A DNA stretch of 34,288 nucleotides from Planctomycetota bacterium (GTDB lineage: Bacteria > Planctomycetota > Phycisphaerae > Phycisphaerales > SM1A02), in NCBI GenBank assembly GCA_016873255.1, contig VGXR01000029.1, positions 1-34,288 of the forward strand, written 5' to 3'. The notes under the pieces are model-generated. The model was given only the letters and a program-made list of their open reading frames with translations. It made no database searches and was not told the DNA's origin. Each line of letters starts with the position of its first letter. Position 1 is the stretch's first letter. Position numbers and translations under genes: made by a program. This document shows positions 1 to 34,288 of this stretch, one piece after another.

Positions 1-320
1 AGTTGTTGCACGCCCCGGCCGCGCGCGCCTCGCCGCAGATGCGCCCGTTGCGTGCAACTTGTCCGAGCGACTGAGGCCACCGCCGGTCGCCGAGGCGTCC
101 AAGGCGCCGCACACCCCGCCCGTCGCGTGCAACGTGTCCGAGCGACTGAGGCCACCGCCGGTCGCCGAGGCGTCCAAGGCGCGCCGCGACCTCCGCACGC
201 GACCGCCCCCACCGCCGTTCGCCGAGGCGTCCAGGTCCGCGCCGCACCGCACCACGCGTCAGCCCAACCACCCGACTTCTCGGGAGAAATCAACCGGTGC
301 CAAACGAACCAGGAGCGGAT
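1..320. repeat. Dispersed repeat element, copy A (partial, cut by window start)
   Basis: Non-coding stretch downstream of the metalloprotease gene. Bases 1-102 align without gaps to 33588-33689 with few mismatches. The right end (about 278-320) matches the terminal inverted repeats of the complete copy at 33260-33841. Inside is a tandem duplication of about 75 bp: the unit around CCACCGCCGGTCGCCGAGG starts at 77, again at 152, and in a diverged form at 209. GTTGCACGC (5-13) and GCGTGCAAC (50-58) form a 9-bp inverted repeat. The element ends directly at the stop codon (321-323) of the minus-strand gene. No transposase is encoded in the visible part. Short open frames here only translate the repeats. 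Confidence 0.85.
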
Positions 321-743
321 TCAGGCGTAGCCGAGGCGGTCGAGGTCGTCCTCGTCGAGGCCGAAGTGGTGGCCGATCTCGTGGAGCAGTGTGATGCGGA
401 TCTCGCGGGTGACCTGCGCCTCGCCGCCGAGCGGGGTGCCGTCGTCATCGGTCCATGGATCCCAGCCGCCGGCCTCCTCGAGGATGCCCTCGCGGAAGAG
501 CGTGATCACCTCGGGCAGGCCCGCGTCGGCGACGCTGCGCTCGGTGAGCGGGATGCCGCTGTGCAGCCCGCACAGGCCGGCGTGGTCGTCGGGGTCGATG
601 CCCATGTCGGCGAGCAGCTCGCGCGAAGGGTGGTCCTCGAGCACCACCGGAACCTCCTCGAGCATGCGGTGGATGGCCTCGGGCATGGATGCAAGCACGT
701 CCTCGAAGAGCCGGTCGAAGCGTGCGCGTTCGTCGCGGCGCAT
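321..743 (-). CDS. Zincin-like metallopeptidase (possible zinc metalloprotease, PF06262-like)
   Basis: A 140-residue protein with the zinc-protease signature HEIGHHFGL near residues 118-126, i.e. HExxH followed by G, close to the C-terminus. Short acidic proteins with a C-terminal HExxH are typical of the bacterial 'possible zinc metallopeptidase' family; their substrates are largely unknown. No signal peptide is visible, so it is probably cytoplasmic. The ATG lies 4 nt after the pyrD stop codon, so it is probably co-transcribed with and translated after pyrD. The TGA stop is followed at once by the inverted-repeat end of the repeat element (ATCCGCTCC on this strand). Confidence 0.8.
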   Translation of the reverse strand: MRRDERARFDRLFEDVLASMPEAIHRMLEEVPVVLEDHPSRELLADMGIDPDDHAGLCGLHSGIPLTERSVADAGLPEVITLFREGILEEAGGWDPWTDDDGTPLGGEAQVTREIRITLLHEIGHHFGLDEDDLDRLGYA

Positions 744-31838: not shown

Positions 31839-31867
31839 TCCCGCCTCCCACCGACCGGGACCACTCC

Positions 31868-33262
31868 ATGCTCAGCAAGATCTTCAAGGCCTACGACGTC
31901 CGCGGCATCTATCCCGAGCCCCTCAACGAGAAGGACGCGTGGCAGATCGGCTTCGGCTGCGCGCGCTTCCTGCTGCAGGAGGCGCAGAAGGACGGCCGCG
32001 CCGGCGCGGGCGCGCGCACCGTGGTGGTGGGGCGCGACATGCGCAGGAGCTCGCCGAGCCTCGTGCGCAGCCTCAAGGACGGCATGCGCGAGGGCGGGGC
32101 GCACGTGGTGGACGTCGGCATGGTGGACACCCCGTTCACCTACTTCGCCGCGAACCACCTGAACTCGGCGGGCGCGGTGCAGACCACGGCGAGCCACAAC
32201 CCGGCGCAGTACAACGGCTTCAAGGTCAGCGGCGCGGGTGCCAAGCCCGTCGGCCAGGACACGGGGCTCGCCACGATCAAGGCCGCGGCCGAGGCGGCGG
32301 CGCCGGGGGAGGGCCCGGGCGGAGGCAGCGAGGAATCGAAGGACCTGTGGGCGGAGTACCGCGCGCACCTCCTGAGGTTCCTGCCGAAGGAAGTGCTCGA
32401 CGGCACGCGCACGCTGCACGTGGTGATCGATGCATCCAACGGCATGGCCGGCACCATGGTGCCCAAGGTGTTCGCCGACGTGAAGGGCCTGCGGATCACG
32501 CCGATCAACTTCGACAACTCGACCGGGGAATTCGTGCACGAGCCGAACCCGCTGGTCGAGGCCAACCTGGCGCCGACGCGCGAGGGCGTGCGCACCCTGA
32601 AGGCCGATTTCGGAGTCTGCTTCGACGGCGATGCGGACCGGTGCATGGTGATCGACGAGCGCGGAGAGCCGGTCGGCTGCGACCTGCTCACGGCGTGGCT
32701 CGCGCAGGGCTGGCTGCGGTCGAACCCGGGCGCGTCCATCGTCTACGACCTGCGCTCGACGCGCAGCGTGGCCGAGGCGGTGCGCGAGGCCGGCGGCGTC
32801 CCCGTGGAGGGGCGCGTGGGGCACGTCTTCATGAAGCAGAAGCTGCGCGAGACGGGCGCGCCGTTCGGCGGCGAGCTGAGCGGGCACTTCTACTTCGGCG
32901 ACATGTGGTGCACCGACAGCGGCGCGCGCGCGTTCGCCAACGTCGTGGCCGCGCTCGTGGCCGCGGGCAAGCCGATGAGCGAGTGCATCAAGCCGTTCCG
33001 GCGCTACTGCCAGAGCGGCGAGATCAACTTCGAGAACGACGACAAGCAGGGCGCCCTTGACGCGCTCCGCGCGAAGTACCCGCACGCGAAGTTCCACACG
33101 CTCGACGGCCTGAGCATGGACTGCGGCGACTGGTGGGCGAACATCCGCATGTCGAACACCGAGCCCCTGCTGCGCCTGAACCTCGAGGCCCGCGATGCCG
33201 CGACCGTGGCCGCGAAGGTGCGCGAGCTCGAGCCGGTGCTCGGCCACCGCGTCGAGCACTAA
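31868..33262 (+). CDS. Phosphomannomutase/phosphoglucomutase
   Basis: A 464-residue alpha-D-phosphohexomutase. FKAYDVRGIYPEPLNE opens domain 1. The phosphoserine loop TTASHNPAQYNGFK is near residue 108, the metal loop FDGDADRCMVIDERG near 253, the sugar-recognition loop GGELSGHFYFGDM near 334, and the phosphate-binding RMSNTEPLLRLN near 427. It interconverts 1- and 6-phosphates of glucose or mannose and so supplies nucleotide-sugar precursors. The loop after residue 140 (GEGPGGGSEES) is a glycine-rich insertion. The TAA stop at 33260-33262 coincides with the first bases of the repeat element. Confidence 0.92.
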   Translation: MLSKIFKAYDVRGIYPEPLNEKDAWQIGFGCARFLLQEAQKDGRAGAGARTVVVGRDMRRSSPSLVRSLKDGMREGGAHVVDVGMVDTPFTYFAANHLNSAGAVQTTASHNPAQYNGFKVSGAGAKPVGQDTGLATIKAAAEAAAPGEGPGGGSEESKDLWAEYRAHLLRFLPKEVLDGTRTLHVVIDASNGMAGTMVPKVFADVKGLRITPINFDNSTGEFVHEPNPLVEANLAPTREGVRTLKADFGVCFDGDADRCMVIDERGEPVGCDLLTAWLAQGWLRSNPGASIVYDLRSTRSVAEAVREAGGVPVEGRVGHVFMKQKLRETGAPFGGELSGHFYFGDMWCTDSGARAFANVVAALVAAGKPMSECIKPFRRYCQSGEINFENDDKQGALDALRAKYPHAKFHTLDGLSMDCGDWWANIRMSNTEPLLRLNLEARDAATVAAKVRELEPVLGHRVEH

Positions 33263-33841
33263 ATCCGCTCCCGGTTCGTTTGGCACCTGTTGTTTTCTCC
33301 AGGGATGTCCTCTTGGGGGCTTCGGGTACTTCGGCGGCTTCGGGGGCTGGCGAGTGGTGCGTGGCGATGGAGCGGGTGGTGCTTGGTTGACGGGGTGCGG
33401 TGGTTCCGTCGGTGGCCGCGCCCCTTCGTTGCGCCGGGACCCCCGTGCTCACTGCGGGGCGCTCGCCGAGTGACGGGTCGCGTTCCCCGGATTCGGCTGC
33501 CTGCTGATGAACGACAGCAGGCGTTCGAACGCCGCGCGCCGTTCGTCGCCCCGAGCCGACAGCGAACGGTGGTGGCCTCATCAAGCGAGTTGTTGCACGC
33601 CCCGGCCGCGCGTGATTCGCCGCAGATGCGCCCGTCGCGTGCAACTTGTCCGAGCGACTGAGGCCACCGCCGGTCGCCGAGGCGTCCAATCCCGCCGCGC
33701 ACCACGCACCACGTACGCAACCACCCCCCACCGCCGGTCGCCGAGGCGTCCAGGGCGCGCGCACCCCACCGCGCGACTGGCCCATCCACCCGACCTCTCT
33801 GGAGAAAGCAATTGGTGCCAAACCAACCGGGAGCGGATTTA
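33260..33841. mobile_element. Repeat element, complete copy with terminal inverted repeats (MITE-like)
   Basis: The convergent gap between the phosphomutase and thiG is filled by one element. Its ends, 33260-33302 and the reverse complement of 33799-33841, match at 39 of 43 positions and begin TAAATCCGCTCCCGGTT. Bases 33588-33689 match window bases 1-102. The CCACCGCC unit is present twice (33664, 33728). Internal hairpins are at 33499-33522 and 33539-33569. There is TA at both outer edges, as expected for a TA target-site duplication of IS630/mariner-type elements. No transposase frame is visible; short frames in it look like repeat translation. It could also be a long intergenic repeat with another role. 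Confidence 0.75.
33499..33533. other. Perfect hairpin plus palindrome inside the repeat element
   Basis: GCCTGCTG (33499-33506) and CAGCAGGC (33515-33522) form an 8-bp stem with loop ATGAACGA. The palindrome GGCGTTCGAACGCC (33520-33533) overlaps its right arm, so the two structures are mutually exclusive. Confidence 0.65.
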
Positions 33842-34288
33842 CTCGCCGGGGATGTGCGAGATCACGCCCTCCCACGGGCTGCTCGCGTTCGCATAGAGCT
33901 TGCGGGGGATGCGGCCGGCGCGGGCGGTGTGCCAGCCGGCGTCGAGCGCGAGCCGCATCGCGTGCGCCATGCGCACCGGGTCCTGCGCGTGCGCGATGCC
34001 CGTGTTCAGAAGCACTCCGTCGGCCCCGAGCTCCATCGCGTGCACGATGTCGCTTGCGGTGCCGACGCCCGCGTCGACGATCACGGGGTAGTCGGGGCTG
34101 CCTCCCTGGTCGGCGAGCTTGAGGCGATCGATCACCATGCGGATGGCCGCGGGGTTGGCGACGCCGCGGCCGCTCCCGATGGGGCTGCCCGCGGGCATCA
34201 CGCTCGCCGCGCCGGCATCACGCAGGCGCGCGGCGACGATCGGGTCGTCGCTCGAGTAGCAGAGCACCGCGAACCCGTCCTTCACGAG
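33839..34288 (-). CDS. thiG: Thiazole synthase ThiG, C-terminal part (5' end outside window)
   Basis: 149 C-terminal residues of ThiG, which builds the thiazole phosphate of thiamine from a DXP-derived sugar, dehydroglycine and ThiS-thiocarboxylate. The visible part begins [16 protein letters not shown] and contains [39 protein letters not shown] and [14 protein letters not shown], all typical of the phosphate-binding half of the TIM barrel. ThiG uses a Schiff-base lysine that lies in the missing N-terminal part. The TAA stop is shared with the outer bases of the repeat element. No other thiamine gene is in the window. Confidence 0.93.

Follow-up and report, generated by a model that had tools for sequence, protein, structure and literature searches.

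The window, a 34,288-nt stretch of DNA from a Planctomycetota bacterium, ends in two convergent genes, a pgm-type gene (phosphoglucomutase/phosphomannomutase) and thiG, and the gap between them was found to be filled by an inverted-repeat element with both ends at TAA codons, just as the original prediction had described it (Table 1). The two arms, compared as 33260 to 33309 and 33792 to 33841, are 88% complementary over 50 nt. A partial second copy at the window start pairs with the left end of the element (274 to 344 with 33239 to 33309, 79% over 71 nt), and at all three element ends in the window, those at pgm, at thiG, and at the ORF adjoining the second copy, the last base of the stop codon is the first A of AATCC. 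The claim that the second copy also begins at a stop was thereby borne out. Its flank had been described as CA, but read into the element this junction is TG|A, i.e., a TGA stop. When ATCCGCTCCNGGTT was searched with up to 2 mismatches, five matches were obtained in the window against 0.97 expected, and the three perfect matches were the three element ends. The contig begins within an element copy (position 1), and repeats of the AATCC family therefore probably break the assembly. No Rfam match was obtained in the window at gathering scores, and the single ORF tested inside the element, of 176 aa on the minus strand, had no Pfam match.

Table 1. Positions of the genes and element parts in the window
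Feature	Positions	Strand	Remarks
pgm-type gene	31862..33262	+	Pfam PGM_PMM domains I-IV, sequence; start not determined; stop TAA 33260-33262
Left terminal arm	33262..33308	+	First A completes TAA of pgm
Whole 578-bp element (arm, inner part, arm)	33262..33839	.	
Inner core hairpin	33547..33689	+	Related to congener repeats
Right terminal arm	33793..33839	-	First A completes TAA of thiG
thiG, cut by window end	33839..34288	-	Pfam ThiG, sequence; stop TAA 33839-33841
Partial second element copy, cut by contig end	1..321	-	
Terminal arm of second copy	274..321	-	First A completes TGA (minus strand, 321-323) of adjoining ORF

A dispersed family at gene ends

In the window's own genome (G000; 2.78 Mb in 152 contigs), a BLAST search with the focal element gave 114 matches, and a degenerate 26-base arm pattern (≤3 mismatches) gave 81, with 0 for the reversed control. 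Ends were catalogued in 334 kb (overlaps included) around these matches, a catalogue that misses ends too diverged for the BLAST and pattern searches; the pattern match at C54:5878 was left out, C52:14837 was dropped by the profile, and the left-arm tip on contig C12, lying beyond the contig edge, was unscored. Of the scored tips, 22 had no recognised partner and the others made up 30 distinct pairs, which amounts to about 50 copies, the pgm-thiG element among them. The pairs spanned 40 bp, 78 bp, 94 to 106 bp, or 176 to 731 bp; the 94- to 106-bp class, mostly of 97 bp, was the commonest. The inner sequence of the focal copy, of which the core hairpin is a part, was common to many of the long copies. 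With a pattern of 18 fixed bases, four single matches were obtained in unrelated named genomes and were taken as chance, in a search that may omit records of G000 itself or of a very near genome.

The family consists of small dispersed DNA hairpins that sit almost exclusively at gene ends, with terminal arms starting AATCCG. The GTAG/GGAG tetranucleotide is absent at the stem foot, which reads (G)AAAT or TAAAT. Several further features of the copies were observed. Tandem arrays of the tip plus a few flanking bases, in units of about 15 to 16 bp, occur at C22:29819-29888 (L078) and on C5 upstream of 15511 (L085), and both start flush with a TGA stop. Near position 5005 of C44 (L154), a TACCAGTTTCGGG-like unit is tandemly repeated just inside the element arm. 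The segment C27:20551-24794 (L090), between two elements, has the opposite orientation to that in G007 and G013, the order in G012 being that of G000, and its breakpoints coincide with the elements. Finally, outside the ends C4:4845, C5:16029, and C16:29795, the motif GTGTAG (CTACAC on the opposite strand) is seen repeatedly and may belong to the promoter of the gene reading away.

Element tips serve as stop codons

Of 83 tips scored in G000, 77 were run into by a long ORF with coding-type GC3; ORFs were defined by length and GC3 alone, and most flanking genes are unnamed. The stop lay at -2 in 36 tips (TAA in 22, TGA in 11, TAG in 3), at -3 in 8 (all TGA), and inside the arm in 17, while in 16 it lay further upstream before correction for tandem tips. 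At C22:29828, C5:15511, and C9:21165 the tip is present in tandem copies, the first of which is flush with the stop, and these three ends were moved to the flush class. C27:15104 and C27:15124 represent one end with a duplicated tip; it was counted once in the corrected set of 82 ends, from which C27:15124 was removed, and twice among the 83 tips, the 77 facing an ORF, and the 31 paired entries considered below.

In the corrected set, 76 of the 82 ends faced a gene 3' end, with 47 flush (TA|A, TG|A, or TGA|AATCC), 17 read into, and 12 having the stop 5 to 71 nt upstream of the tip; one of the last, C5:16029, has an odd ORF GC profile and may be a promoter side. The three-of-three pattern noted in the window thus became, genome-wide, a stop at the junction or supplied inside the arm at 64 of 76 gene-facing ends. 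Copies lying mostly far from stops, the outcome named beforehand as contrary to the prediction, were not what was observed, since most G000 copies lie near stops. Five of the six ends without an incoming ORF have a coding-type ORF that points away from the element and could start within 23 nt of it.

The way in which a gene is closed depended on its frame. In frame 1, the two bases before the tip were TA in 25, TG in 11, and GA in 5 cases; in frame 0 they were GA in 12 and TG in 1; and in frame 2, in which genes are not closed at the tip, they were GA in 17, CA in 5, and TG in 1. Among the 17 genes reading into the arm, 11 were closed by a TAG at +14; 7 of the 60 other ends have a stop there (Fisher p = 3e-5). 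All 6 of the remaining genes met a TGA at +29, which is also found at 12 of those 60 ends. As a gene reading beyond +60 would go uncalled, this 17/17 closure holds for the ORFs found. Five of the 11 proteins closed at +14 share the tail KSVPG, and the rest carry variants of it. The G000 tips therefore serve as stop codons, through T+AA or T+GA in one frame, T+GA in a second, and in-arm stops in the third. Among the possibilities raised originally, a 3'-end element kept because it closes genes fits these data best, and the 17 genes closed within the arm speak for it; the processing or termination signal suggested as an example of such an element found less support, there being no T-run at the focal element. 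GA preceded the tip at all 12 upstream-stop ends, and the canonical tip is therefore probably GAAATCCG, with terminal arms that probably start (G)AAATCCG.

The TA flanks on both sides of the focal copy had suggested an IS630/Tc1-mariner-like MITE with a TA target duplication. Across the family, TA was present on both sides in only 3 of 31 pairs, and matching dinucleotides were found at both ends in 5 of 31, against 4.4 in shuffles. For the 31 pairs and 24 combinations of length and offset, no target duplication was clearly above shuffles, the best signal, for 2 bases and offset 1, being 5 against 2.1 (a level reached by 17 of 500 shuffles). Such a MITE was therefore rejected as the origin of the element and is regarded as highly improbable. 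Since the G000 copies are not recent, traces of duplication may have been lost.

Orthologous junctions and related elements in the genus

The pgm-thiG junction was compared in 11 of the 13 congeners, G001 and G011 being left out. Both stops were at the same codon as in G000 in 11 of 11, and the spacer between them differed between species. The G012 spacer is a 78-nt AATCCGTACC hairpin; those of G013, G005, G004, and G007 measure 27, 98, 66, and 11 nt, respectively, and those of G002, G003, G006, G009, and G010, which start ATAGGTGCC, span 38 to 81 nt; in G008 it is 3 nt, with no element. Orthologous sites with the same stops but lacking the element had been named beforehand as evidence against the prediction. 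This was in part what was found: the stops of pgm and thiG are at the same codons even in element-free G008, so the element did not create them. Three of the spacers match repeats that flank Y1 transposase genes: that of G005 matches L253 from G005 itself (95% over 41 nt), that of G004 matches L241 from G004 itself (94% over 33 nt), and that of G013 matches L248 of G003 (96% over 25 nt).

These spacers bear on the possibility that the hairpins are primarily bidirectional terminators, with the spacer reduced to a hairpin and the stops sharing its A-rich foot (AAAT...ATTT). Such a function is consistent with the orientation of the copies, every one of the 31 paired entries having at least one end towards the 3' end of a gene, with the way different spacers replace each other at pgm-thiG, and with predicted folding: six sequences of ≥30 nt, from elements or spacers, have folding energies of -18 to -66 kcal/mol, and the 582 nt from 33260 to 33841 fold 9.85 sd more stably than shuffles. 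However, no terminator-like site (a GC-rich stem and then a T-run) was found at the focal copy (window positions 33100 to 33950; 0 against 0.5 expected from shuffles), and the spacers of 3 nt in G008 and 11 nt in G007, the latter folding at just -2.8 kcal/mol, indicate that a strong hairpin is not required at pgm-thiG. Termination as the primary role is possible, if somewhat improbable.

Elsewhere, congener spacers without a recognised element were mostly short. At site G, six genomes had 10 to 21 nt and a seventh had 70 nt; site A had 6 to 39 nt in six genomes, and the range at site F was -14 to 88 nt. The left gene of site B has its G000 stop at the codon used by all six congeners compared, and at the right gene of site A an element-encoded tail replaces, in G000, the last residues present in G005 and G013. 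At site A, G012 has a hairpin of its own that is flush with a TAA at either end, and immediately before the stop of the right-hand gene stand the first 16 bases of another tip (GAAATCCGTACCCGGT); this double-tip end would be explained if one element had replaced another at the stop.

Hairpins related to the AATCC family of G000 were found in G012 and G004 with the degenerate 26-base arm pattern. In G012, the 26-base arms were identical within each of the seven copies with both arms listed, and 13 of 18 ends had an ORF: 2 were flush, 4 had their stop within the arm (at +13 or +14), and 1 had it at +44, and in 6 the stop lay at -10 to -14, with the tip 5 to 9 nt past it. In G004, six of seven ends had an ORF, with 2 flush, 2 stopping inside, and 2 upstream. 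With just 2/13 flush in G012 and 2/6 in G004, flush ends are not the rule throughout the family. G007 has a second family, which starts AAATAGG and has 17 ends, 13 of them with an ORF; 4 were flush, 7 were closed by the arm's own TAG at +2, and 2 had a distant stop, so that 11 of 13 were closed at -2, at -3, or by that TAG. Relatives of the core hairpin were found in G001, G005, G007, G012, and G013, with 71 to 79% identity over the longer matches; the outer stem (GGTGGCCTCA...TGAGGCCACC) is conserved and the inner part varies, and no AATCC arm was seen around them in the contexts L157, L158, L159, L161, and L163. Four of the 37 predicted core pairs have changed on both sides. At L174, L180, and L184 of G012, sites occupied by AATCC elements in G000, the gene ends are followed by a different palindrome (of the AAAACATGCCGGGGG/CCCCCGGCATGTTTT type).

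The question of how the tips came to be flush was addressed with the congener spacers. Under uniform insertion, a tip would fall flush with any given stop about 8.5% of the time, a null that rests on ten empty congener spacers, those taken to hold an element being left out; congener spacers of -26, -14, 6, 6, 6, 17, 19, 23, 25, 26, 39, 64, 70, and 88 and G012 spacers of 36 and 652 lie outside it. Against this, 47 of the 59 G000 ends not read into were flush. Insertion alone is therefore insufficient, and either selection together with small deletions or directed insertion has to be added. In true homing, insertion itself would be directed to stop codons or gene 3' ends, and flush tips would be made at insertion. 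The excess of flush tips is as homing predicts, and so are the paired entries, at least one end being flush in 26 of 31 and both ends read into in 0 of 31, and the unmoved stop of the left gene at site B. However, the stop-to-tip gaps of G012 argue against strict homing, since 6 of its 13 ORF ends have stops at -10 to -14 and only 2 are flush despite identical paired arms. Frame-1 junctions had TA or TG in 36 of 41 cases, while the flanks of upstream-stop ends were GA, as expected if stops were selected and not targeted, and the replaced residues at site A likewise speak against homing, which we consider unlikely. The earlier proposal of insertion at TA-containing stop codons is likewise not supported, given these GA flanks and G012 gaps. 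It also appears doubtful that insertion was aimed at the stops of convergent genes in such a way that the whole stop-to-stop spacer was replaced and both stops were re-created by the tips; a stop-directed insertion of this kind could recognise, for example, TRA beside the AAAT foot. Selection was therefore ranked above directed insertion as the explanation for flush tips.

Gradual trimming of the spacer with age was also considered and rejected. Arm identity did not correlate with the stop-to-tip gap in G000 (rho -0.10, p 0.52, n 43), and this lack of an age trend argues against slow trimming, although longer gaps do occur in the G012 copies, whose arms are identical.

Y1 transposases and the likely origin of the family

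Y1_Tnp genes were found in 9 of the 14 genomes of the genus, and a profile built from 12 of the 15 Y1 hits recovered the same nine. The profile search found no Y1 transposase in G000, G009, G010, G012, or G013, which are 67 to 97% complete (G012, 88%; G013, 69%). The best NCBIfam match was the REP-associated tyrosine transposase in six of six tested, one above and five below the curated cutoff. Inverted repeats of 23 to 60 nt lay on both sides of the Y1 gene in eight of nine loci, the repeat of L245 being one-sided, and these sister repeats have the same build as the AATCC arms. AATCC-type arms themselves were absent from the congener transposase loci inspected. Seven AATCC arms matched the L241 repeat at 18 to 22 of 30 positions in a fixed register after AAAT (shuffle p ≤ 1e-4 for each); the repeats of L242, L243, and L247 were matched at fewer positions than that of L241, and those of L245, L248, L249, and L254 no more than by chance. 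In 6 of 10 cases the Y1 gene's own stop was located within its flanking repeat or, in the case of L249, overlapped the repeat's first base. Stop supply therefore seems to be a trait of the wider family.

Some RAYT-like genes are known to carry long flanking inverted repeats (TIRYT, TIRtron), some of which form repeat families (PMC3733652; Di Nocera et al. 2013), and, in the account given in PMC6006769, Y1 subclass 2.1 holds 20 of those 26 TIRYTs. As far as these accounts describe them, they resemble the G000 family in having dispersed, moderately abundant inverted repeats of the Y1-flanking kind, many copies consisting of two inverted arms, and the published GGGGWSAS motif is present as GGGGACAG in the congener repeats L242 and L243. 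The motif, found in the majority of the cases published there, is in contrast present in 0 of 83 G000 arms on either strand. The G000 family also differs in having no Y1 hit, in its AAATCCG tips, and in its copy length of 40 to 731 bp, many long copies having an extra inner part. GTAG REPs and BIMEs are likewise palindromic and preferentially lie beside gene 3' ends (PMC2817692, PMC3733652). In the species shown in PMC3733652, REPs located between convergent ORFs are mostly no more than 20 bp from either 3' end, and the TAG stop of a flanking ORF is often provided by a GTAG REP terminus; REPs have also been described close to or directly after rayt stop codons (PMC2817692). Stop supply by REP termini is thus already in print, at least for the REPs treated in PMC3733652, and the G000 family is a variant of it, with a (G)AAAT foot in place of the GTAG tag and with TAA or TGA stops at the tip, the remaining frame being stopped within the arm. 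In literature searches confined to open-licence papers, no description came up of AAAT-footed arms, three-frame stop supply, or stop-to-stop replacement. REPs reportedly stall ribosomes near stop codons (Liang, Rudd and Deutscher, in 2015, are said to have made this observation), and a literature search on this point returned nothing relevant. Rickettsia palindromic elements lie inside genes. As palindromic repeats that join reading frames, they share a feature with the G000 family (they are mentioned in PMC3733652), the difference being that the G000 element gives just the last residues of a protein, such as KSVPG, and the stop.

Taken together, the element probably belongs, as a non-autonomous member, to a RAYT/TIRYT-type family of REP-like or TIR elements moved by Y1 transposases, with copies in the short gaps between convergent genes. 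Its movement would have depended on a Y1 transposase since lost from G000, and the surviving copies would mainly be those insertions or replacements that closed both incoming genes quickly, the elements turning over in short convergent spacers. Once in place, the hairpin might also act as a two-way barrier or terminator between converging transcripts, a role more weakly indicated by the data.

The family illustrates how a repeat can fill the few spare bases between converging genes harmlessly, its ends carrying stops for each frame, and how related species can have different sequences written over a junction whose two stop codons stay fixed. Orthologous junctions of this kind allow insertion preference and selection to be separated, and the family also offers a direct test of whether TIRYT-type Y1 transposases favour gene ends.
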